The notes beneath the pieces are model-generated. The model was not told where the DNA came from and did no database searches. It saw only the letters and a program-made list of their open reading frames with translations. The translations under genes were made by a program, and so were the position numbers. A stretch of 64,000 bases of DNA from the NCBI RefSeq assembly GCF_900091445.1, contig NZ_LT607733.1, forward strand, positions 4,491,001 through 4,555,000, written 5' to 3'. Positions 1,564 to 12,576 of this stretch are shown in pieces. This DNA is from Micromonospora echinofusca (GTDB lineage Bacteria; Actinomycetota; Actinomycetes; Mycobacteriales; Micromonosporaceae). Numbering within the stretch: the first letter of the stretch is position 1; the number at the start of each line of letters is the position of its first letter.

Positions 1564-2145
1564 TCAGGCGGGGGTGCGCAGGGCGGTCTCCACCCGGCGG
1601 CGCAGGTCGTCGAGGTCGGCGCCGGCCTCGGTGAGCACCAGCGCGCCGAGGCCCTGCCCCTCGCGGAGGACGCCGAGCAGGATGTGCTCCGTGCCGATGT
1701 GCCGGTGGCGCAGGCGCAGCGCCTCCCGCAGGGCCAGCTCCAGCACCTTCTTGGCGCGCGGGGAGAAGGGGCCGCCCGCGTACCGTCGACGGCCCCAGCG
1801 GCGACGCGGCGCCGGCGCGGCCTCGCGCAGCGCGTCGGGGCCGAAGGACTCCTCGATCCGGGCCACGATTGCAGCCAGGTCGATGCCGATCTCGCGCAGG
1901 GCCGCGGCGTCGGCCTCGCCGAGGCCGGTGGCTCCCCGCTCGGTGTGCCGGCGGATGCGGGCCCGCAGGTCGTCGGCGCGCAGGCCGGCCTCGACGAGCA
2001 CCCGGGCGGCGAGGCTGTCGCCGTCGGAGAGCAGGGCGAGCAGCAGGTGCTCGGTGCCGACGGGTCGCTGGCCCTCGGTCCGGGCCTCGTCCCGGGCGTC
2101 GCGCACGACAGTGCGGGCCCGGTCGGTGAACCGTTCGAACATCAC
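1564..2145 (-). CDS. Clp N-terminal (R) domain protein, no ATPase domain
   Basis: 193 residues containing two Clp-R repeats: MFERFTDRARTVVRDARDEA with GTEHLLLALL in the first 70 residues, and FSPRAKKVLELALREA with GTEHILLGVL in the last 90. These match the N-terminal substrate- and adaptor-binding domain of ClpC, but there is no Walker ATPase module, so it cannot unfold proteins alone. It may bind Clp substrates or adaptors, or act in DNA-damage or stress control; that is inference. ATG overlaps the stop of the HTH gene (ATGA, 2142-2145), so the two are translated together. Confidence 0.85.
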   Translation of the reverse strand: MMFERFTDRARTVVRDARDEARTEGQRPVGTEHLLLALLSDGDSLAARVLVEAGLRADDLRARIRRHTERGATGLGEADAAALREIGIDLAAIVARIEESFGPDALREAAPAPRRRWGRRRYAGGPFSPRAKKVLELALREALRLRHRHIGTEHILLGVLREGQGLGALVLTEAGADLDDLRRRVETALRTPA

Positions 2146-2378
2146 GCCTCCCAGGAGGATCCGACCGCCGGACGACCGGCGTGCTTCTTGTGGACCGCCT
2201 GCCGGCTGACTTCCAGCTCGTCGGCGATCTCCTGCCAGGACCAGCCCTGTCGACGGGCGTTGTCCACCTGGACCACCTCGAGCCGCTCGAGCAGCCGGCG
2301 CAGCGCGCGGACGGCGCGCAGCCCGACCCGGGGGTCGGTGCTGCCGGCTGCCGCCGCGAGTTCCGTTGCCTGACTCAT
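2142..2378 (-). CDS. Small helix-turn-helix regulator
   Basis: A 78-residue protein with a helix-turn-helix at about residues 45-68 (WSWQEIADELEVSRQAVHKK) of the sigma-70 region 4-like type. It is the first gene of a two-gene operon with the Clp-N protein, overlapping by ATGA. This pair is common in actinobacteria, where the HTH protein probably regulates the operon. The promoter upstream carries two perfect GTCAAC-N4-GTTGAC palindromes placed over the -35 and -10, which would fit autoregulation. Target and signal are unknown. Confidence 0.8.
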   Translation of the reverse strand: MSQATELAAAAGSTDPRVGLRAVRALRRLLERLEVVQVDNARRQGWSWQEIADELEVSRQAVHKKHAGRPAVGSSWEA

Positions 2379-2443: not shown

Positions 2444-2453
2444 ATGGCGTCGG
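2444..2453 (+). pseudogene. 5' fragment (codons 1-4) of VOC-family gene split by the transposon
   Basis: ATG GCG TCG G is directly followed by the transposon end. The final five bases GTCGG (2449-2453) are the target duplication, repeated at 12147-12151. Joined to 12152 onwards the frame reads MASVKQVQITFDCAEPERVA, a normal VOC/glyoxalase-like start. A -10-like TATGGT (2432-2437) seven bases before the ATG suggests a leaderless transcript for the original gene. Confidence 0.75.
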
Positions 2454-2467
2454 TGTGGGTTCTCAGC
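2454..2467 (+). repeat. Left terminal inverted repeat
   Basis: TGTGGGTTCTCAGC, identical to the complement of the right end at 12133-12146. The preceding five bases GTCGG are the target-site duplication. Confidence 0.92.
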
Positions 2468-2530
2468 GGGGTTGATCTGTTCTCACTGAACCTGATCCGT
2501 ACCTGATCCGTTCTCACGGAACTTGATCCG
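2459..2530 (+). repeat. Left-end array of TnsB-type binding sites
   Basis: Three copies of a 21-bp motif, consensus GTTCTCAC.GAAC.TGATCCG, occur at 2459-2479 (overlapping the inverted repeat), 2479-2499 and 2510-2530; a partial copy (tail CCTGATCCG) lies at 2501-2510. All point inward from the end. Tn7-family ends carry such arrays as transposase binding sites; the assignment to TnsB is inference. Confidence 0.8.
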
Positions 2531-2892
2531 CCCGACTGCGTGCCGCCGTCCGGGGGCCGTCGCTGTCCTGTCCACGTGAGGCTGCAACCGTCCGGCTGAA
2601 GTTGGATCAATCAGGGGGCGGTGTCGGCGACCGCCTGAATCTGTGGTGAGCAGTCCGGCTCTGGCTCGGACCTGCGTCTGCCCGAGGTCACAGGCACCGG
2701 GGTCCTTGCATGGCCCTGCGCATGGGTGGGCTGGGACAGCCCACTAAATATCTGATCTCGATCTGGGTCGTGTCGATCGTGGGGTGTTGTTGCCGACCCT
2801 CAAAGGACACGCGGGCAGACTCTACGCCGATAGATGGCGCGCGTCAGGGTCGGGTAACAGTGCCTCCTACATCTTGACGGGCCCATCACATG
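2531..2892. other. Transposon left-end internal region without a recognisable gene
   Basis: About 360 bp between the left-end repeat array and the hairpin at 2893. No frame gives a protein I recognise. It may be decayed sequence or spacer. Confidence 0.5.
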
Positions 2893-2925
2893 ACGAGAGC
2901 CTCGCCGCAACTGCGAGGCTCTCGT
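2893..2925 (-). terminator. Strong hairpin downstream of the ABC exporter operon
   Basis: A perfect 13-bp stem (2893-2905 with 2913-2925) with a 7-nt loop, extended by imperfect pairing of flanking ATCACA/TGTGAT. It lies about 120 bp beyond the permease stop on the minus strand, so it probably ends that transcript and shields the transposon end. No clear U-tract is present. Confidence 0.6.
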
Positions 2926-3045
2926 GGTTTGTGATCAAGGGCGGTGTCGCCGGGCGGTAGGGCGTGTTGACCGGGCGTAGTGAGATGGAAGCTGCCGGGT
3001 CTCCGCCCTCACGTTCGCCGGATGTTTCGCCGGCCGAGGTTGTTG

Positions 3046-5262
3046 TCAGTCAGCGGTTGGTCGCCAGCGGCGTACTGCGCGGCTCGCGGTCTCTCCGCAG
3101 AGCAGACCGAGCGCGATGGCGGTGATCGTGACGGTGAGGACGGAGCCGGTCAGTAGTGGCCAGGAGAGGCGTCCGAAGCCGCGGGTGAGACTGAAGGCGT
3201 ATCCCAGGGCGGCAGCTGCGGCGCCTCCGACGACGCCAGCGAGAATGAGCGGCACGGTGATGTTCCATTGAGCGATGGCGGTGTAGAGCCTTCGGCGGGT
3301 GTACATCGCGCCGAGCGGTCCGAGGGAGCGGGTCTGTAGCAGAAATGTGTCTATCGCGCCGATGGCGGTGGTCAGTGCCAGCACGAGGACACCGAGTAGT
3401 CCGAAGGCCCAGACCCAGGAGTATAGGTGTGCCTGGTCAACGGCACCGGAAATGCTGTACTGCCCGGAGGTGTGCACGTCCGGGAAGGCGAGTGTGGCGT
3501 AGGCGGTGCGGGCGATGGCTTGCACACCTGAGATGCCCTCGTCATTGAATACCAGGAAGCCCACGATTTGGTATCCGTTGGGCACGGTTGGGCCGACGAG
3601 TGGGTCCGTCCAGAGGATGGTAGATGCCGCGCCGGAGCGGATGGCGTCGCCGGTCGTGTTGAAGGTGCGGTACGCCGCAGGTGCAGGGGTGGGCGTGGCC
3701 ATGCAGGTAGTCAAGGTACCCAGGTGGGCCAGGGCTTCGCAGGTGCCGACGAGGGCCTGGTTGTTGTTCCTGTCGGTGGCGACCCGAACGGTGCGATCGG
3801 TGCCGAGTGTGGTGGTGAAGCGTTCAGCCTCGATGGCGGGGTTGTTGGCGCGTACGGTGACGATGCGGTCGCCGAGTAGCTGTCGCTGCGCGGACCAGGT
3901 GCCCGCGTCGAGGGCCTGGTTGAGGTAGACCTGCAGGAAGGTCAGTACCGCCAAGCCGACGACGACGGCGGCGCACATGCGAGCGATCGCTGCGGAGCGG
4001 TCCAGTAGCCAGCGTCCACCGATGAGTGCGGCAGGCCAGCCTCGGCGCCGTCCGGTGCGGGCTGCGAAGCGCGCGACAGGCACAGCGAGGCTGGCGACGG
4101 CAGCGGGCAGGGTGAGAATGGCCACCAGCATGGCCGCTTGAAACACGCGCATCTGCAGGGCGTTGGGATACACCCCGCCGGCTTCGGCGGCTGACCATGT
4201 GGCCAGGGCCAGGAGCATCACGGCCACCGCGAACACAACTCGAGGCCATGTTCTCAGTCGAGCTGTTACGGCGCGGGGCCTCGTGCCCTGCACCGCGCGG
4301 CGCCGTAGCTGCGCGGCGATGGTCAGCGCCAGCATCAGCATGGCGGTGCCGACGGCTAGCAGCGCCAGCGCTGGACGGCCAGCCGACAGGTCGACCGAAC
4401 GTACTCGGTAGTCCACGAACGGTACGGTGACGTCGACGACGGTGGTCAACGCCGCGGTCACGCCCCCGAGCAGGATGCCAACGGCAACCGGCAGGCCGGC
4501 TTCCCCGGCGAGCACCCAGGACTTGGCTCGTGCGGGTGCGCCAAGGGCATCAAGCATCGCCAGGCGTCGGTCCCGCTGCTCAGCGCCGGAGCGCACCGCA
4601 ACCGCGATCAATACCAGGGTCGGTACGCCGATGACGAGCAGCATGAGCAGGTACATGTCGTGGGCGGTGCGGCCGGATAGACCCGAGGTGCGGTAGGTCA
4701 GCGGGGTGACCTGCGGATTGCCGAAGCCGCTGATACGGGTTTCGGCGCCGGAGCGGTCCAGCCAGGTGGGATCTGTCGGCTGCAGGTATACCAGCCACTC
4801 GGCGGGCTCGGCCAGACCATCGGCGTCGATCTCGCCGGCGAAGCGGCCGTAGCGTTGCTGAAGCTCTCCGTCGGTGTCGGCGGCCAGCAGCGCCGGCGAC
4901 AGGAACGCTTCCCCGGGGGCTGGCCAACGCGGCAGTCCCGGTGGCGGCGGTGCGTCGGCGCGTTGTGGAACCACGTTGATGACGATGAACTGGCTGTCAT
5001 GATGGAAGTCGCCGCGTTCGGCCCACTTGGCCATCGGCGCGCTGGTGTCGCCGCGGTCGAGGAAGACTGGTTCGCGGGAAACGATACGAGCGTCGCGAGC
5101 GGTGAATACCGCGTCCGCGGCGATGAACAGCCATCCACTCAGCAGTGCGACTATCGTCGCTGAGGCCAAGGCCACCCGGTGGGTCAACGCCGTCATGCCG
5201 CCGTGACGGCTACTGCGGTGACCGAGTACGGCGAGCATCGCGGTTGGGCCAGGACGCCTCAT
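3046..5262 (-). CDS. FtsX/MacB-type ABC transporter permease (peptide exporter)
   Basis: 738 residues from the ATG at 5262, which overlaps the ATPase stop (ATGA); the longer open frame upstream is the shadow of the ATPase gene. The protein begins with a membrane anchor (about residues 27-47), followed by an extracytoplasmic domain to about residue 180. A group of helices with DRRLAMLDALGAPAR follows, then a central second helix set and three C-terminal helices, the arrangement of long FtsX-like permeases associated with bacteriocin or lantibiotic export and immunity. With the ATPase and the secreted peptide gene upstream it forms a three-gene cassette. The cargo substrate is probably that peptide (inference). 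Confidence 0.82.
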   Translation of the reverse strand: MRRPGPTAMLAVLGHRSSRHGGMTALTHRVALASATIVALLSGWLFIAADAVFTARDARIVSREPVFLDRGDTSAPMAKWAERGDFHHDSQFIVINVVPQRADAPPPPGLPRWPAPGEAFLSPALLAADTDGELQQRYGRFAGEIDADGLAEPAEWLVYLQPTDPTWLDRSGAETRISGFGNPQVTPLTYRTSGLSGRTAHDMYLLMLLVIGVPTLVLIAVAVRSGAEQRDRRLAMLDALGAPARAKSWVLAGEAGLPVAVGILLGGVTAALTTVVDVTVPFVDYRVRSVDLSAGRPALALLAVGTAMLMLALTIAAQLRRRAVQGTRPRAVTARLRTWPRVVFAVAVMLLALATWSAAEAGGVYPNALQMRVFQAAMLVAILTLPAAVASLAVPVARFAARTGRRRGWPAALIGGRWLLDRSAAIARMCAAVVVGLAVLTFLQVYLNQALDAGTWSAQRQLLGDRIVTVRANNPAIEAERFTTTLGTDRTVRVATDRNNNQALVGTCEALAHLGTLTTCMATPTPAPAAYRTFNTTGDAIRSGAASTILWTDPLVGPTVPNGYQIVGFLVFNDEGISGVQAIARTAYATLAFPDVHTSGQYSISGAVDQAHLYSWVWAFGLLGVLVLALTTAIGAIDTFLLQTRSLGPLGAMYTRRRLYTAIAQWNITVPLILAGVVGGAAAAALGYAFSLTRGFGRLSWPLLTGSVLTVTITAIALGLLCGETASRAVRRWRPTAD

Positions 5263-5984
5263 GCTGCCACCGTCGCTGGCACCAGTGCCCCGCCCTGCAG
5301 AACGACTGTGGAATCGGCGCGGGCGGCCACCTGAGGGTTGTGAGTCACCACTACCAGGGCATAGCCATACTTGCGAGGCAGCGCGTAGAGCAGGTCGGCA
5401 ACGAGATCGGTGGCTGTTTCGTCCAACGCGCCCGTAGGCTCGTCGGCGAGGACTACCGCCGGACGCGTCACAAGCGCTCGGGCGACCGCCACCCGTTGGC
5501 GTTCTCCGCCGGACAGTGTCGCGGTCTGCGCCTCTGCAAGTTCGGCCACGCCCAAGTCGGCGAGCAGCTTTCCCGCCCGCTCGTATGCCTCGGCGGTTTT
5601 CACTCCCGCCAGCAGCGCCGGCAGGGCCACGTTCTCCACCGGCGCGAGCTCCGGCAGCAGCTCCCCGAACTGGTACACCACCCCGATGCGTGACAGTCGC
5701 AGCGCCGCGCGATCCCCGGCACGCAGCCCGGTCAACTTGGTGGCCGAGATGTGGATGCTTCCCTGCGCTACTGGCAGCAACCCGGCCAAACACAGCACGA
5801 GGCTCGTCTTGCCACTGCCGCTGGGCCCGGTGATCGCCACCGACTGCCCGGAGGCCACCGTCAGGTCCGCGCCAGCGAGCAGGGTGCGGCCCGCCACCTC
5901 GTAGCGAATCCCGCGCGCTATCAAGGCCATCTCCGAAGCGCTGCTGGCAGGTGTGCTTGTCGTCATCTGAACCCCGTCACTCAT
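5259..5984 (-). CDS. ABC transporter ATP-binding protein (MacB/LolD type)
   Basis: About 241 residues. It has Walker A GPSGSGKTS, Q-loop VVYQFGELLPEL, signature LSGGERQRVAVARAL, Walker B VVLADEPTGALD and the switch His in VVTHNPQ, so it is a complete nucleotide-binding subunit of the LolD/MacB class that partners FtsX-like permeases. The ATG at 5984 is chosen; ATG 5966 is an equally possible start, and the open frame extends to 6062 across the hairpin, which is unlikely to be translated. Stop overlaps the permease start. Confidence 0.88.
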   Translation of the reverse strand: MSDGVQMTTSTPASSASEMALIARGIRYEVAGRTLLAGADLTVASGQSVAITGPSGSGKTSLVLCLAGLLPVAQGSIHISATKLTGLRAGDRAALRLSRIGVVYQFGELLPELAPVENVALPALLAGVKTAEAYERAGKLLADLGVAELAEAQTATLSGGERQRVAVARALVTRPAVVLADEPTGALDETATDLVADLLYALPRKYGYALVVVTHNPQVAARADSTVVLQGGALVPATVAA

Positions 5985-6004
5985 CGGGCATCGGTGCAAC
6001 GGAA

Positions 6005-6031
6005 CGCGGGCCGACGAAGCGTCGGCCCGCG
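6005..6031 (-). terminator. Attenuator-like hairpin between peptide gene and ABC genes
   Basis: A perfect 12-bp stem (6005-6016 with 6020-6031) and 3-nt loop sits between the peptide stop (6044) and the ATPase start. It lacks a U-run, so it may act as a partial terminator or mRNA end stabiliser, giving more peptide message than transporter message. Confidence 0.6.
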
Positions 6032-6043
6032 CACCCCATCGGG

Positions 6044-6337
6044 TTACGGCTTCCATTCCCAACCGGAGTAGGAGTCCGGACCGGTGTAGTTGGCTGCGGC
6101 CCTGTGCCTGTAGACGTAGTTGGACGTGTCGGAGCCGCTGTTCACCGACGTGTTGCAGCCCTGGTAGTTGTTCACCGTCTGCGTGGTGCCACTCTGCTGG
6201 GTACGGCGGTACTCACCATAGACGCCCGTGGAGTCGCAGGCCGTGTCCTGGATGGTGACACCACCGTAGCCGTCGTAGAACAGGGTGCAGGCGGACATCT
6301 CGTCCGTGCACACCTTCGCCGCCGCAGGAGCGGCAGG
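6044..6337 (-). pseudogene. Secreted cysteine-containing peptide gene, 5' end lost to IS256
   Basis: The frame ends in SYSGWEWKP and, read upstream, passes VCTDEMSAC and an Ala-rich LPAAPAAAK that looks like the end of a signal peptide. It then runs directly into the end of the IS256 copy. So the start codon and most of the export signal are missing. The mature part (~88 residues) has four Cys (CTDEMSAC, DTAC, QGC) and is rich in Ser, Thr, Tyr and Asn. It is followed by an ATPase and a long FtsX-type permease, an order seen in lactococcin-972-like cassettes, but it does not match that peptide. Family unrecognised; possibly a bacteriocin or signalling peptide. Confidence 0.6.
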
Positions 6338-7575
6338 GAGTGTGTTGATTTCCGTGTTTGGGCCTGTGGTGTGATCGAGGTTGTTAGATGGTGATCCGGT
6401 CGCCGTAGGCGAGGATCAGGGCGTTGAGGGCCTTGGCCCAACCGTAGACCCTGCCGGTGATGCTCCCGCCGCCCTTGCGTTTCTGCTGGACGACGAGGTA
6501 GAGGACCTTCATCGCGGCCTGCTCGGTCGGGAAGTGCCCGCGCCGGCGGGCGGCCTGCCGGAACCGGGCGTTCAGACTCTCGATGATGTTGGTGGTGTAG
6601 AGGACCTTGCGGACCTCGTGGTCGTAGTCGAGGAAGGGCACGAACTGCGGCCACGAGGTCCGCCACAGCCGGATGACGGCCGGATATTGGTCGCCGAACT
6701 CGGCGGCGAAGGCCTCGAAACGGGCCTCGGCGGCGGCGACGGTGGGGGCGGTGTAGATCTCCCGCAGGGTGGGGGTGATCTTCTGCCAGTCCTTGCGGTT
6801 CGTATAGCGCAACGACGCTCGCACCAGGTGCACGACGCACTGCTGGTGCACCGCCTGCGGCCAGACCTGTTCGATGGCGTCGGTCATGCCCTTGAGGCCG
6901 TCGGAGCAGACCATGAACACGTCCTCGACACCGCGGTTGCGCAGTTCAGTGAGGTAGCCGGCCCACTGCTTGGCGCCTTCCCCGCCGGTCCCGGCCCACA
7001 TACCGAGCACGTCGCGTTCCCCGTCGAGGCTGATGCCGACCACGACGTAGACGGGCCGGTTCGCGACCTGCCCTTGGCGGATCTTCATCACCAGGGCGTC
7101 GATGAACACCACCGGATAGATCCGGTCGAGTGGCCGTTGCCGCCAGGCTTCCATCTCGTCGAGGACGCTGTCGGTGACCCGGCTGATCAACTCCCGAGAC
7201 ACGTCGGCGTCATACACATCCGCCAGATGCGCGGAGATCTCCCCCGTGGTCAACCCTTTGGCATACAGCGACAGGATCGCCTCGTTGAACCCGTCCAACC
7301 TGCGGACATGCTTGGGCACGATCCGCGGGGTGAACGACCCGGCTCGGTCCCGCGGAACCTGGATGCGCACCGGCCCGACCTCGGTCTGCACCGTCTTGGC
7401 CCCGTGCCCGTTGCGAATGTTCGTCCGCCGGCCGGTCTCCTCGTCGACGCCGACCTCGTCGAGGTGCGCATCCAGCTCCGCATCAAGCGCTGATTCCAGG
7501 ACGGTGCGAGTGATCCCGACCAATAGCCCACCCGGCCCGACCAACGAGACTCCGTCGGCCTTGGCCCGTTCGAGA
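6337..7575 (-). mobile_element. IS256-family insertion sequence, left part missing
   Basis: The 3' boundary lies near 6337, where sequence of the peptide gene stops and the segment GTGTTGATTTCCGTGTTTGG begins, as in actinobacterial IS256 ends. The other boundary, near 7575, cuts the transposase within its N-terminal region: no start codon, leader or second inverted repeat is present, and the sequence passes straight into tnsA. This points to a deletion after insertion that removed one end of the IS and the 5' part of tnsA. Confidence 0.7.
6384..7575 (-). pseudogene. IS256-family transposase, N-terminally truncated
   Basis: About 397 residues from LERAKADGVSLVGPGGLL to the natural end GDRITI. 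Catalytic DDE residues are visible: Asp in VVFIDALVMKI, Asp in VCSDGLKGM and Glu in TNIIESLNARF. Intact relatives carry roughly 25 more residues before ERAKADG; here those codons and the start are replaced by tnsA sequence. The frame stays open much further upstream, but that part is antisense to tnsA and tnsB. The protein is probably not made or not active. Confidence 0.72.
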
Positions 7576-7883
7576 CGACCGGCCGGGCCTGCGCCGAGGT
7601 TGGTTGGGAGTATCGGCTGGTGCACGAGCCGGATCCGGTGGTGATGGCGAATGTGCGGTGGCTGGCAGGGTATCGGTATCCGCGCTGCCTGCGCCCGGCC
7701 GTCGCCGCTGCCGCCCCGGCGGTGTTCGCGGAGCCTACGCCGTTGATGGACGGCGCGACACGGTTGGGTGACCCGCTGGCCAGTCTGCCGACGGTGTTCC
7801 ACCTGCTGTGGCGCGGCCGGTTGGGCATCGACCTGACGGTTCCGCTGTCGGAGTTGTCGATCGTGTCGGCGGCGGGCCGGTGA
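7576..7883 (+). pseudogene. tnsA: TnsA-like transposase endonuclease subunit, 5' truncated
   Basis: The surviving C-terminal ~100 residues, with GWEYRLVHEPDPVVMANVRW, LAGYRYPRC and WRGRLGIDLTVPLSELSIV, match the C-terminal half of actinobacterial TnsA-like heteromeric endonuclease subunits. The N-terminal catalytic part and the start are gone, replaced by the IS256 fragment. In Tn7, TnsA cuts the 5' ends so that the element moves by cut-and-paste. Its loss would leave TnsB strand transfer only. The stop overlaps the tnsB GTG (GTGA, 7880-7883). Confidence 0.72.
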
Positions 7884-9940
7884 GTGGCGCCGGCCGGGCG
7901 GTGCTGGGTGTAGGCGACCGGTTGCAGTTTGACGGTCGGTCGTGGGCGGTCGGCGGCTTGCAGGGGGTGCGGGTACGCCTGGTCGATGACGCCGGTGATG
8001 CCCAGGTGCTGCTGTTGGCGCATGTGCTGGCGTCGCCGGGCTTCGAACTGTTGGAGGCCGGTCCATCGCCTGCCCGGCTGGATCCGGTCGGGTTGATCGA
8101 CGCGCTGCCGGCGACGGTGCTGGAGCGGGCCCGGCAGTGGGAGCGGCATGTCGTGGAGGTGCAGACCGGGTTGCCACCGGACGCGCCGGCAGGTGTCCGG
8201 CCGCGCGAGCCCTACGATCCGGCCCGGCACACTCTCGCGCAGCGGGAGGCGGTCAAGGCTGCCGAGTTGACCGAGGCGGGACAGCCGACCAGCGCGGTCA
8301 CGGTCAAGCGGATGCGGCTGCGCTACCGGTCTGAAGGGTTGTGGGGCCTGGTCGACCACCGGGCCACCCGCCCGGTGTCCTCCTACGGTCGGGTCGACGA
8401 CCGGGTGGTCGCGGCGGTCGAGGCTGTGATGGTGACCGAGACCGGGGAGTCGACCGGCACCCGGTCGCGGTTGCGGCACCGGGTGGAGCAGTTGCTGGCC
8501 GTCGAGCACGGGCCGGGTGTGGTGCCGATGCCGTCGACGGCGACGTTCTACCGCCTGGCCGCCGTGATGGACGCTGGCCGGCACACCTTCGGCGAGGCGA
8601 CCACCCGCCGCAGCCTGGCGAATCGGCCGGCGCGGCCGTTCACCCGCGCCGTCGCGGTCCGCCCGGGCGAGCTGGTGCAGGTCGACACGTCCCCGCTGGA
8701 CGTGATGGCGCTGCTGGACGACGGCGTGACCGGACGGGTGGAGCTGAGCGTCGTGCTGGACGTCGCGACTCGCTCGATCTGCGCGGCGGTGCTGCGTCCG
8801 CAGGGCACCAAGGCCGTCGACGCGGCACTGCTGCTGGCCAAGATGTTGGTCCCGGAGCCGATGCGGCCCGGCTGGGCGGACGCGCTGGCGATGGCCCGCT
8901 CGCGTATCCCCCACCGGCGGCTGCTGGACCTGGACGCACGGCTGGAGCACGCCGCCGCCCGGCCCGTCATCGTCCCGGAGACCATTATCACCGACCGAGG
9001 CGCGGTGTTCGTCTCCGAGACGTTCGTGCGGGCCTGCGCCCGGCTCGGGATCTCCGTCGAGCCGGCCCGGCCGGGCACCCCGACCGACAAGGGCCACGTC
9101 GAGCGGACGTTCGGCTCGATCCGCACCCTGTTCTGCCAGCACGTTGCCGGCTACGTCGGGCCGAACGTCACTCGTCGGGGCACGGCGGCTGCCACGGAGG
9201 CGGTGTGGTCACTTCCCCAGCTTCAGGAGTTGCTCGACGAGTGGATCGTCGCGGGGTGGCAGCCCCGCCCGCACGAGGGACTACGTGACCCGGATGCTGG
9301 TGGCCGGGTGCTGTCGCCCAACGAGATGTTCGCTGCCGCGATCGCGGCGGCCGGGTACGTCACCCTGCCGCTGACCGGCACCGACTACCTGGAGCTGCTG
9401 CCGGTCGAGTGGCGCACCATCGGCGATCACGGCATCCAGATCGACTACCGCCACTACCACAGTCCTGACCTGGGCCGTTACCGCCACGGGTCCTCCGGTG
9501 TGGTCGGCAAGGGCAAGCAGTGGGAGGTCCACTACGACCCCTACGACCTGTCGCACGTCTTCGTCCGGGACCACCAGTGCGGCGGCTGGATCACGGCCAC
9601 CTGGACCCACCTGCCGATGGTCGGGCAGCCGTTCGCCGACTTCACCTGGCGGGCCGCCCGGCAGATTGTCGCCGCCCGCGGCGGCGACGACACCGACGAG
9701 ACCGCCGTTGCCCGCGCCCTGGACGACCTCCTCACCCGGGCCGGTGCCGGCCCCGGCGGCGATGCCCGCCATCAGCGGGTGGCCGCCCGGACCCGCGCTG
9801 CGGCCCGGCCGATCCCGTCCACTCCGCCGGCCGACCCGGAAGAACCCGCCGACGCCGAAGAGGAGGGCCAGGACCTGCCGCTGGCGAAGGTGATCCCGTT
9901 CGGGGTGTTCGAGCCTGGCGACGAGCGGCGCTACCGGTGA
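7880..9940 (+). CDS. tnsB: TnsB/TniA-type DDE transposase
   Basis: 686 residues from the GTG at 7880 overlapping the tnsA stop; the frame is open to 7808 but only as a shadow of tnsA. An N-terminal DNA-binding region with a helix-turn-helix (about residues 100-200) precedes the RNase-H-like core: Asp in VQVDTSPLD, Asp in IITDRGAVF and Glu in DKGHVERTFGS. A C-terminal Mu-transposase beta-barrel-like part follows. TnsB binds the end repeats and joins the 3' ends to target DNA with 5-bp spacing, matching the observed duplication. Coupled by GTGA to tniB. Confidence 0.92.
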   Translation: MSGAGRAVLGVGDRLQFDGRSWAVGGLQGVRVRLVDDAGDAQVLLLAHVLASPGFELLEAGPSPARLDPVGLIDALPATVLERARQWERHVVEVQTGLPPDAPAGVRPREPYDPARHTLAQREAVKAAELTEAGQPTSAVTVKRMRLRYRSEGLWGLVDHRATRPVSSYGRVDDRVVAAVEAVMVTETGESTGTRSRLRHRVEQLLAVEHGPGVVPMPSTATFYRLAAVMDAGRHTFGEATTRRSLANRPARPFTRAVAVRPGELVQVDTSPLDVMALLDDGVTGRVELSVVLDVATRSICAAVLRPQGTKAVDAALLLAKMLVPEPMRPGWADALAMARSRIPHRRLLDLDARLEHAAARPVIVPETIITDRGAVFVSETFVRACARLGISVEPARPGTPTDKGHVERTFGSIRTLFCQHVAGYVGPNVTRRGTAAATEAVWSLPQLQELLDEWIVAGWQPRPHEGLRDPDAGGRVLSPNEMFAAAIAAAGYVTLPLTGTDYLELLPVEWRTIGDHGIQIDYRHYHSPDLGRYRHGSSGVVGKGKQWEVHYDPYDLSHVFVRDHQCGGWITATWTHLPMVGQPFADFTWRAARQIVAARGGDDTDETAVARALDDLLTRAGAGPGGDARHQRVAARTRAAARPIPSTPPADPEEPADAEEEGQDLPLAKVIPFGVFEPGDERRYR

Positions 9941-11025
9941 CCCGCACCCCGGCGGAAGATCTCGTCGACCCGCCTGCCCACGAACCGCCCACCACGAAGG
10001 AAGGCTGGGCGGCGTTCATCGAGCAGCAGCCCTCCCGGATAGAGGTTCTGGCGACCGCCCGGCTGGCCGCGCTCACCCCGGCCGAGCGGGACACCTACGA
10101 CGATGCGCGGATCGCCCACCACGCCCGGCTCATCATCGTGGCAACCCCAACCGTCGACCAGATCGTCAACACCGGCCGGCGGCTCGTGCTGCTCAACCGC
10201 GGCACCGACACCGCGCGGCGGGGCCTGGTCGTCACCGGCGACTCCGGAACCGGCAAGAGCACCGCGATCAAGCAGCTCGGCAAGCACCACGAACTGCTGG
10301 CCCGGCGTCGACGCACCGCGCCCGGCCCGTTCCTGCCAGTCGTCTACGTCACCGTCCCGCCAGCGGCCACTCCGAAGGTCCTCGCCGCTGAGTTCGCCCG
10401 GTTCCTCGGCCTGCCGCTACCCCGCAATCTCAACCAGGTCAACATCACCAACGCCGTCTGCGACGTGCTCTCCCAGCTCGGCACCGACCTCGTGCTCGTC
10501 GACGAGATACACAACCTCAACCTGGCCACCAGAGTCGGCGCGGAAGCCTCCGACCAGCTCAAATACCTGGCCGAGCGGCTCCCTGCCACGTTCGTCTACG
10601 CTGGCATCGACGTCGAGCGCGCCGGCCTGTTCTCCGGCGTCCGTGGCCGGCAGATCGCCGGCCGTTTCGCCTCGATCACCACTACGGCGTTCGCGTACGG
10701 CACCCGCACCCAGCGCGAGCAGTGGGCCGCCCTGGTCAGCGCTCTCGAACACGCGCTACGCCTGCACCAGCACCGCACCGGTTCGCTGTTGCGTCTCTCC
10801 GGCTACCTGCACGAACGCACCAGCGGCATGATCGGCAGCTTGTCCCACCTGATCCGCGACGCCGCGATCGAGGCCATCTTCGACGGCACCGAACGCATCA
10901 CCAAGACCGCCCTGGACCGGGTCGTCCTCGACCACGCCGCCGAACATCCCCGGCCGGGCGCCGCCGCATCACCGGCTCGGCCACGCCGGATGCCCGCACA
11001 CACCGCCAGCAGCGGAGCCGCCTGA
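9937..11025 (+). CDS. tniB: TniB/TnsC-type AAA+ ATPase, transposition regulator
   Basis: 362 residues starting at the GTG that overlaps the tnsB stop. Walker A GDSGTGKST lies at about residue 102, Walker B VLVDEIHNL at about 190, and a sensor region with YAGIDVERAGLF follows, the pattern of TniB/TnsC ATPases. These assemble on target DNA, receive the target signal from TniQ and activate the TnsB transposase. It sits between tnsB and tniQ exactly as in Tn5053/Tn7-like elements. The long open frame upstream is antisense or off-frame to tnsB. Confidence 0.92.
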   Translation: MTRTPAEDLVDPPAHEPPTTKEGWAAFIEQQPSRIEVLATARLAALTPAERDTYDDARIAHHARLIIVATPTVDQIVNTGRRLVLLNRGTDTARRGLVVTGDSGTGKSTAIKQLGKHHELLARRRRTAPGPFLPVVYVTVPPAATPKVLAAEFARFLGLPLPRNLNQVNITNAVCDVLSQLGTDLVLVDEIHNLNLATRVGAEASDQLKYLAERLPATFVYAGIDVERAGLFSGVRGRQIAGRFASITTTAFAYGTRTQREQWAALVSALEHALRLHQHRTGSLLRLSGYLHERTSGMIGSLSHLIRDAAIEAIFDGTERITKTALDRVVLDHAAEHPRPGAAASPARPRRMPAHTASSGAA

Positions 11026-11027
11026 CC

Positions 11028-12059
11028 ATGCCCGACCCGCGCGACCCCTACTGGCAACGCCGCCTGCGCCCGTTACCGATCCCAGTCCGGCCGATGCCGC
11101 GCGAACTCATGATCTCCTACCTGCGACGGCTCGCCAACGCCAACCGCGTCGACCGCCCCCTGCTGATCCGCCACATCGCCACCGACCACGCCCACCACAT
11201 CGGCCCGCTCCACACACATGACCTCGCGCTCAACCGGCCGGCGCTCGCGCGACTGGCCATCCTCAGCGGCTACCCCGAAGCCGTCCTACTGGCAGCCATC
11301 TCCACCCGCACCCTCAAGACACCTGGGCCGGAGCCGCTGCGCGACTGGATACCGCTGGGCGGCACCGGCCCCACTTTGCTACGCCCCTGCTCCCACTGCA
11401 CGGCCCGCCATGGGATCCGCGTCCCGGCCATCATCCAGCTCGAACCGGGCCCGCCACCCATCTGCATCCGACACCGCCGCACGTTGGTGCCCTACCACTA
11501 TCGATCCGACCGCGGCAACGAACAGCCCCTCGGGGCAGCACCCGAGATCGTCACCGCCGCGCACCGCTACAAGATCCTTCGCCGCCGCCATCGAAACACC
11601 ATCGGCGAGGCGTTCGCCGCAGCCGCCAACATCACCCGCCTCTGGGGGCGAGGCCGGGTCGGTCACTACAGAGACAAGTCGGAGCAGATCAACGCCCGCT
11701 GGAACGCCCGAACCGAGCACCTCCCACACGTTCCCGACACCGTCATCCGCTACCCGGAGACCATCGCGCTCACCAGCCTGTTCGCCTCGGCCCCCACGCT
11801 GATGCTCACCCCAACCGAGGACCGCGAAGCCCCCTCCACCATGCAGTTCCTGCTCGCCGTCGCTCGATGCCTTGATCATCCAGCGCCCGAACAGCTACTC
11901 CGCCCCGCCCATCCGCTGTTCCGCTGGGCTGGCGGCTGGGGCATGCCCACCTGGTTCTGGCGCAACATCCAGGAGCCAGACCGGACGATCTACCGAACCC
12001 TGGCCCAAGGCTCAACCCAACTCAACCCCCGGCCGGCAAGAAGAGATCAAATCCAGTGA
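11028..12059 (+). CDS. tniQ: TniQ family target-selection protein
   Basis: 343 residues. The N-terminal IPVRPMPRELMISYLRRLAN is the TniQ opening, in which the protein interacts with target-site machinery. A Cys/His knuckle (CSHC at about residue 124, CIRH at about 150) fits the zinc finger of the family, and an Arg-rich helical part follows. TniQ/TnsD proteins recruit the transposase to specific targets; whether this one recognises a defined attachment site is unknown. Starts 2 bp after the tniB stop. Its last codons overlap a TnsB-type end repeat (12043-12063). Confidence 0.88.
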   Translation: MPDPRDPYWQRRLRPLPIPVRPMPRELMISYLRRLANANRVDRPLLIRHIATDHAHHIGPLHTHDLALNRPALARLAILSGYPEAVLLAAISTRTLKTPGPEPLRDWIPLGGTGPTLLRPCSHCTARHGIRVPAIIQLEPGPPPICIRHRRTLVPYHYRSDRGNEQPLGAAPEIVTAAHRYKILRRRHRNTIGEAFAAAANITRLWGRGRVGHYRDKSEQINARWNARTEHLPHVPDTVIRYPETIALTSLFASAPTLMLTPTEDREAPSTMQFLLAVARCLDHPAPEQLLRPAHPLFRWAGGWGMPTWFWRNIQEPDRTIYRTLAQGSTQLNPRPARRDQIQ

Positions 12060-12141
12060 GAAGGCGACGGCCTGAGGCTTCTCACCGAAACTGACCCGCT
12101 GCTGGTCGGCTGGTCGCCCCTGGATCACCTTTGCTGAGAAC
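12043..12141 (-). repeat. Right-end array of TnsB-type binding sites
   Basis: Three sites related to the left-end motif: complement of 12121-12141 (overlapping the inverted repeat), complement of 12043-12063 (matching 15 of 21 positions of the second left copy, within the tniQ 3' end) and, in the opposite orientation, 12078-12098 on the plus strand. The unequal number and orientation between ends resembles the left/right asymmetry of Tn7 ends. Confidence 0.7.
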
Positions 12142-12146
12142 CCACA
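12133..12146 (-). repeat. Right terminal inverted repeat
   Basis: The complement reads TGTGGGTTCTCAGC, identical to the left end. It is followed by GTCGG (12147-12151), the second copy of the target duplication. Confidence 0.92.
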
Positions 12147-12576
12147 GTCGGTCAAGCAGGTACAGATCACCTTCGACTGCGCGGAACCCGAGCGCGTCGC
12201 CCGCTTCTGGTGCGAGCTGTTGGACTACGTCGTACCGCCGGCACCCGAGGGGTACGCCACCTGGGACGATTTCGATCGCGCGCTGCCGCCCGAGCGACAG
12301 GGTTCGGCGTTCGCATGCGTCGACCCCTCAGGCGTGGGCCCGCGACTGTTCTTCCAGCGCGTCCCCGAGGGCAAGGTCGCCAAGAACCGGCTGCATCTCG
12401 ACGTACGCGTCGGCACCGGGCTCGTGGGCGAGGAGCGCCTGGCCGCACTTGAGGCCGAATGCGCGCGGCTGGTCGCGCTCGGCGCGGTACGCGTGCGACT
12501 GCTGCGCGCCGACGGCTACAACGAGTCCTGCCTCGTGATGCAGGACATCGAGGGCAACGAGTTCTGTCTCGACTGA
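12147..12576 (+). pseudogene. VOC-family (glyoxalase-like) protein, 3' part of interrupted gene
   Basis: The coding frame continues from the target duplication: VKQVQITFDCAEPERVARFW, then DPSGVGPRLFFQRVPEGK, KNRLHLDVRV and QDIEGNEFCLD at the end, a complete VOC fold of two beta-alpha-beta-beta-beta modules. With the 10 bases at 2444-2453 the original protein is 144 residues. The gene now lacks its start and promoter; an internal GTG/ATG start would lose the first strand. Function of the subgroup unknown; many are small-molecule-binding or resistance proteins. Confidence 0.82.

Follow-up and report, generated by a model that had tools for sequence, protein, structure and literature searches.

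A Tn7-Like Element in Front of a Conserved HTH Gene

The stretch of DNA considered here, called the window throughout and always meant at its full length, comprises 64,000 nucleotides of the Micromonospora echinofusca genome G000 (GCF_900091445.1, contig NZ_LT607733.1, positions 4,491,001–4,555,000) and contains a Tn7-like unit of 9,693 bp at positions 2454–12146. To the left of this unit lies a host gene for a helix-turn-helix (HTH) protein of 78 aa (2145–2378, minus strand), whose family matches are weak and below cut-off, followed by a host gene with a Clp_N domain (1564–2145, minus strand). The HTH gene runs divergently from the insertion side and is preceded by two palindromes (GTCAACNNNNGTTGAC), the inner one, GTCAACCTACGTTGAC, at positions 2382–2397 and the outer one, GTCAACCCATGTTGAC, at positions 2410–2425, with the left end of the element located 28 bp outside the outer palindrome and 75 bp from the start codon. 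This promoter is proposed below as the address of the element, and the two palindromes as its attachment site; judging from their position and symmetry, they are probably the operators of the HTH gene.

Gathered at the right end of the element, and all on the plus strand, are a remnant of tnsA that covers the C-terminal ~105 aa (7567–7883, aligned to positions 113–211 of the 212 of NF033179), the DDE transposase gene tnsB (7868–9940, with an open reading frame that may start at 7808), the gene for the AAA+ regulator TniB/TnsC (9937–11025) and tniQ, which encodes a presumed target selector of 343 aa (11028–12059). The Tn7-like identity proposed by the initial annotation is borne out by these proteins. 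TnsB reaches 33.5 bits for PF00665 (rve; cut-off 32.6) and 36.4 bits for PF09299 (Mu C-terminal; cut-off 21.7), and it matches the TnsB of Tn6677 with an E-value of 4.3e-10. TniB scores 61.8 bits for PF05621 (cut-off 22.4), matches VchTnsC with an E-value of 1.2e-13 and has the TnsC of the Vibrio element Tn6677 as its nearest solved structure by sequence, while TniQ scores 30.7 bits for PF06527 (cut-off 27), its CxxC...CxxH columns being invariant in eight sequences. The TnsA fragment passes the NCBIfam model NF033179 (TnsA_like_Actin), yet from position 113 on only. An alignment of 14 TnsA sequences places the conserved ESWLERD, HAPD and the D of (I/V)DxRP, which we take to be nuclease residues by comparison with Tn7 TnsA, in the half that is missing from the window, where the C-terminal half is all that is left of the endonuclease. 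A whole TnsA is encoded by a relative, genome G234 (315 bits), and further TnsA sequences were aligned from 12 other relatives. In the genome of the window, the tnsB query finds one match.

The same annotation had described a complete transposon with a tnsA'-tnsB-tniB-tniQ operon at its right end. The open reading frames of tnsB, tniB and tniQ are indeed intact, but tnsA' is truncated and has lost its N-terminal half. Thus, the ends are complete but the gene set is not, because tnsA is broken, next to a fragment of an IS256-family element.

Both ends of the element are marked by a perfect 14-bp inverted repeat, TGTGGGTTCTCAGC, whose two copies (2454–2467, plus strand, and 12133–12146, minus strand) face each other and carry the pentamer GTCGG on their outer sides (2449–2453 and 12147–12151), just as had been annotated; in the flank-joined site that was compared with relatives, this pentamer is present as a single copy. 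When up to two mismatches are allowed, the terminal copies are the sole matches to TGTGGGTTCTCAGC in the window, and two or more such loose matches occurred in 4 of 100 shuffled controls. The repeat arrays noted near the ends could likewise be found, in the form of three 19-bp sites per end that resemble TTCTCANNGAANTTGATCC and look like TnsB sites. The left trio (2460–2478, 2480–2498 and 2511–2529) is entirely direct, on the plus strand, whereas on the right, counting inwards, repeats 1 (12122–12140) and 3 (12044–12062) lie on the minus strand and repeat 2 (12079–12097) has the opposite orientation, on the plus strand. Similar sites, two or three per end, are present in the related loci L130, L246 and L131, at the left end of L185 and in a mini-element of G000; at the right end of L185, no 19-bp site was found by the same criterion.

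The initial annotation had also called for a test of the ends in related genomes, and here paired TGT ends sharing a 5-bp duplication were found in 18 of 107 related loci, as against 0–2 of 107 with a shifted duplication test; the 18 include L185, a mini-element without tnsABC. These figures come from a search for duplications combined with inverted repeats, which replaced a strict end motif run over the fetched loci, since the latter recovered few pairs because the relatives carry other end sequences. TGT ends, which are also those of Tn7, and 5-bp duplications had been regarded as hallmarks of the Tn7 superfamily; both are present, but taken alone they would fit the Tn5053/Tn402 elements as well. 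In genome G335, a related tnsABC element is present three times (L141, L142 and L143), the ends (TGTCCGTTG...) being the same in all copies and the duplications being CTGGC, ACAGG and CGCCC.

The insertion lies in codon 4 of a VOC (Glyoxalase_6) gene that is whole in relatives, splitting ATG GCG TCG G (2444–2453, plus strand) from the remainder of the gene (12152–12576, plus strand). The initial annotation had suggested looking for the empty site in sister strains, and an uninterrupted site was found in relatives: when the flanks of the element were joined and compared with 20 VOC loci from the same genus, 19 aligned as one block across the joint, with 12–27 bases to the left of it, and the twentieth (L163) aligned in three blocks, with 3 bases to the left. 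The best empty site is L300 of genome G349, which is near the window on the HTH tree and shows the HTH gene, the palindromes and an uninterrupted VOC gene in this order; later window sequence aligns there too, in order. The VOC gene itself was considered as the target and rejected, because the insertion point tracks the HTH promoter. An HTH gene is close by in just three of the 20 VOC loci, the other 17 fetched loci having neither an HTH start within 600 bp nor a left end (a right-end-like match with four mismatches inside VOC in three of these 17 is taken as chance), and the spacing between the ends and the HTH gene is kept with and without VOC.

Recurrent Occupancy of the HTH Promoter

The HTH switch appears to be a landing address, since this position is also occupied by related elements in other species. 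A pattern that required the inner palindrome and the start codon matched in 94 of 354 Micromonosporaceae genomes, and all 94 sites were read. An end of the element, either intact or decayed (up to three mismatches), faces the HTH gene in ten of these sites, and the remaining 84 show no such end. The distances from end to ATG in the ten occupants are 61, 63, 70, 73, 73, 75, 75, 76, 76 and 76 bp, and seven of the ten ends stand 27–30 bp from the outer palindrome. No other end match with up to three mismatches was found in the same orientation at 20–400 bp from the HTH ATG across the 94 sites, and there are two in the opposite orientation, one at 27 bp in L297, where it overlaps the outer palindrome, and one at 306 bp in L290, for a background rate of about 1.6e-5 per position. 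Searching instead for an exact end followed by GTCAACNNNNGTTGAC within 12–42 bp recovers eight of the 354 genomes, and none with the backwards control. The preferred insertion, at a fixed distance and in one orientation, that is typical of Tn7-like elements can thus be read from the genomes of several species.

In 91 of the 94 sites, there are two exact palindromes at a distance of 27 or 28 bp, where only the conservation of the outer one is informative because the pattern demanded the inner one. Where the site is empty (84 sites), conservation ends with the outer palindrome, whose half-sites are near-invariant, and the DNA beyond it, which corresponds to the insertion zone, mostly reaches 0.1–0.5 bits per position. 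Whole-genome searches in 16 hand-chosen genomes, ten occupied and six empty, found the exact palindrome confined to the HTH promoter in all 16, with two copies in 15 of them and one in G344.

Among the ten occupants, the window (with tnsA as a remnant and the duplication GTCGG) and G234 (L130; no duplication) have all four transposition genes. G176 (L246) has both ends and tnsA fragments, G344 a left end and a tnsA fragment, and G290 a left end with an unclear right one. The occupant of G228 measures 1.9 kb and has the duplication ATCGC, the same five bases being found at another right-end candidate, which is weaker. The other four contain VOC: a unit of 559 bp with the duplication TCGAC in G309 (L244), one of 664 bp with both ends and no duplication in G044 (L242), and decayed ends in G038 (L289) and G093 (L290).

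The best comparison is offered by G234, which belongs to another genus of the family. Its element of 6,559 bp shares 94% DNA identity with that of the window over 4,580 bp, from tnsA to the right end. The first 111 bp are 88% identical, the DNA in between is different, and the tnsB of G234 has an in-frame stop after 598 codons, counted from an upstream start. The HTH start codon and the left end are separated by 73 bp, against 75 bp in the window. The host neighbours dagK, Clp_N and HTH are the same, their proteins being 73%, 56% and 92% identical, respectively. Given a core that is 94% identical beside a Clp_N of 56% and a dagK of 73%, the element probably moved between genera and reached the same place.

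The address appears to go along with a particular TniQ. Among the 97 loci with a TnsB match (L051–L147), the HTH gene is found, within the DNA examined, in L130 only, whose TniQ is 88% identical to that of the window, and TniQ in the other loci, where detected, is 26–37% identical; the absence of the HTH gene from these others is no proof, however, because contig ends truncate many of the loci (and a few represent the same place twice). Close relatives of this TniQ are few: at 1e-10 it matches in 12 of the 354 family genomes, several of the matches being fragments, and none was found in a class sample of 394 genomes except the window itself. A large database holds eight close proteins, including the window's own; a related TniQ comes from Plantactinospora. 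On plasmids, TniQ had no match, and TnsB matched in 3126 records, 3123 of them below 60% identity.

Several observations weigh against dedicated homing to this promoter. Three of the ten occupants stand at 15, 17 and 23 bp from the outer palindrome, a perfect duplication is seen in three only (GTCGG in the window, TCGAC in G309 and ATCGC in G228), and a recognisable tniQ is kept in two only (the window and G234). The element of G234, the best comparison, is bounded by different pentamers (GAATC/GGGAT), and a search for another right end with the left five bases behind it, up to the end of the stretch examined, found none; moreover, the HTH coding DNA of G234 and the window is 87% identical. 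The backwards palindrome control matches in 0–2 places per genome, so that few chance copies of so long a palindrome would be expected in any case. On the HTH tree (290 bp), the occupied state needs at least seven changes, five of them forced by supported branches, while label shuffles need 9.7 on average, with none of 500 as low as seven; there is therefore clustering as well as repetition, and the ten occupants are not all independent. The history is further complicated by a VOC gene that neighbours the HTH gene in several genomes. Finally, copies are found elsewhere: a mini-element in G000 (G000:C1:2041986-2043617; L354, L359) has the same kind of end on both sides, a perfect GGAAC duplication and no tnsB, another in G234 (L185 9882–10947, 1,066 bp) has a perfect CCTGC duplication and has kept its left end plus a short stretch of the tniQ end, and G210 and G031 have remnants of a right end at other places. 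Since copies outside the site carry perfect duplications, targeting is not absolute.

Target Selection and Alternative Explanations

Judged from its sequence, the window very probably holds an actinobacterial Tn7-like element of the TnsA–TnsB–TnsC(TniB)–TniQ family, now without a working tnsA, that homes mainly to the HTH/Clp_N promoter through its TniQ pathway. The presumed role of TnsB was to bind the repeat arrays on both sides and to connect the ends with a target staggered by 5 bp, and TniB would have been the link between TnsB and TniQ. The TniQ pathway, with TniQ as the likely selector, would direct insertion mainly to one chromosomal address, namely the tandem palindromes before the conserved HTH/Clp_N pair, and the palindromes, rather than another part of the HTH gene, are probably what is recognised. 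The left end would be set towards the HTH gene, typically 27–30 bp outside the outer palindrome and whatever the sequence there. By analogy, TniQ may act through TniB to place the transpososome at this distance outside the operator; for Tn7, PMC2918618 describes insertion ~25 bp from the TnsD site, with the sequence at the insertion point being irrelevant.

The clustering of occupied sites could also be a sign of shared ancestry, if the HTH gene acquired an upstream insertion once or twice long ago and this was then inherited vertically and mostly lost. Such a history would suit the partial grouping of occupants on the HTH tree, where the three g32 occupants form one supported group, and the decayed state of several of them. 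It is nevertheless improbable: at least five state changes are forced on the tree, the duplications differ (GTCGG, TCGAC and ATCGC), and the window insertion lies in VOC codon 4, whereas the end of the element in G309 and G044 is located ~95 bp upstream of that point. The high identity of the window and G234 cores relative to Clp_N and dagK argues in the same direction, a point that the similarity of the HTH DNA weakens somewhat. Recurrence without ancestry might come from a physical hot spot, that is, open or bent promoter DNA drawing many insertions without sequence recognition. The site does lie at a promoter region, and the G000 mini-element is also near the start of another regulator-like gene (read as PadR), but a hot spot would be expected to give a spread of positions and both orientations, where the ten ends all point towards the HTH gene and fall in a range of 16 bp. 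With the sole HTH gene among the 97 TnsB-match loci found next to the one close TniQ, this explanation is very hard to credit.

The affiliation to Tn7 can be questioned as well, since Tn5053/Tn402 (tni) elements, which would transpose replicatively, have TniB and TniQ, TGT ends and 5-bp duplications in common with the present one, and with tnsA broken in the window, replicative movement is what could remain. An element of that type should have a resolvase gene and no TnsA; instead, the window has a TnsA remnant, G234 has TnsA whole and 12 further relatives have alignable copies, and the scan of the element proteins revealed no resolvase, all of which makes a tni element highly unlikely. A different matter is who reads the address. 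The host HTH repressor, bound to its own operator pair, might serve as a beacon on which TniQ or TniB docks, with no DNA reading by TniQ. Several features speak for this possibility: the conserved site DNA consists of two palindromes, as expected for a dimeric repressor, no other exact copy of the palindrome exists in the 16 genomes searched, TniQ is short, and no extra selector gene such as tnsF was seen among the open reading frames of the window and G234 (no tnsF profile search being made), when short TniQ proteins are tied to partner selectors by Faure et al. 2023 (PMC10293859). A TniQ of 343 aa may still bind DNA directly, however, and docking is considered possible but rather unlikely. 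If true, reading the address would fall to the host, and this would account for both a short TniQ without a visible partner selector and a site made of two palindromes.

Comparison with Known Tn7-Like Elements

The element resembles Tn7 in its TnsB/TnsC/TniQ-domain machinery, its 5-bp duplication and its insertion in one orientation. It differs in its address, a tandem palindrome in a promoter region as opposed to the 3' coding end of glmS, and attTn7 has no inverted repeats according to PMC2918618. Furthermore, no TnsE was recognised in the present element, its tniQ lies beside the right end and encodes 343 aa, and its TnsA belongs to a separate NCBIfam family. Another group that may be close is the Actinobacteria-dominated clade 2 of Benler et al. 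2021, of which no member had been experimentally characterised according to that paper and for which no attachment site is given in the text of PMC8649781 available here. By their description, both share tnsB/C/Q in actinobacteria and repeat arrays at both ends, and differ in that tyrosine resolvases are linked to the clade, when no such resolvase was recognised in the present element. Because some Tn7-like branches have no tnsA altogether, again following PMC8649781, the truncated TnsA does not exclude Tn7-like membership.

A short TniQ and one dedicated chromosomal address are shared with Tn6022, which uses TniQ and TnsF at comM (PMC10293859); unlike Tn6022, the present element has no TnsF-like gene that could be seen, and its address is before a gene and not inside a coding gene. 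With regard to Tn5053/Tn402, the presence of TnsA in relatives and the lack of a recognised resolvase set the element apart, as does its chromosomal regulator site when compared with the plasmid resolution sites given in Table 1 of PMC11406308.

The addresses of Tn7-like elements named in the accessible portions of PMC8649781, PMC11406308 and PMC10293859 are glmS, tRNA genes, comM, parE, yhiN, guaC, yciA, ffs and rsmJ, with no operator among them, and a literature search over titles and abstract openings returned no paper on this Micromonospora address. The elements are of a known kind, and the new part is an apparent operator-type attachment site, which would differ in kind from the addresses so named. 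Since distance and orientation can be measured at the candidate attachment site, the way in which such elements choose their target becomes directly testable. In Micromonospora, one address on the chromosome could also be used as a landing site in the engineering of antibiotic producers.

Cargo and Minor Units

Between the left end and the transposition genes, the element carries cargo on the minus strand. An FtsX-type permease of 738 aa (3046–5262; Pfam FtsX) is adjacent to the ATP-binding protein of an ABC transporter (5259–5996; Pfam ABC_tran), which is LolD/MacB-like with NCBIfam matches below cut-offs. Next come a small Cys-containing protein (6044–6361) and an IS256-family transposase gene (6384–7566) that is fused to the tnsA remnant and apparently lacks its 5' end and its right end; a second full copy of this transposase was not found in the genome of the window. 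The search for defence genes in the cargo gave generic ABC/AAA matches only, and no cas effector family was found among the scanned element proteins, which matched only the TnsB/TnsC/TniQ models of CRISPR-associated systems (CRISPR arrays were not searched for). The small Cys-containing protein has one relative in the large database, 94% identical and from Micromonospora sp. NPDC048170, and its start was possibly removed by the IS256 insertion.

The mini-element of G000 contains transposase-like and membrane-protein-like open reading frames, as read from their translations. In G176, which is from the same genus as G234, the right-flank sequence of the G234 element sits between both ends at the same site (L246 3379–5417, reversed coordinates). 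A deletion inferred from the G176 spacing had been considered as the reason for the absent duplication of G234, and was dropped because the right flank of G234 lies inside the G176 ends.

A reading of VOC as simply the cargo of small elements fits G309 and likely G044, but may not be the whole history, as VOC also stands beside the HTH gene in L253, L300 and L330 without a recognisable end. At the HTH site, VOC is bracketed by intact or decayed ends in L244 (G309), L242 (G044) and L289 (G038), and accompanied by a decayed left end only in L290 (G093). The small VOC-bearing units, with 559 bp and a perfect duplication in the smallest, may represent the capture of a host gene as minimal cargo.

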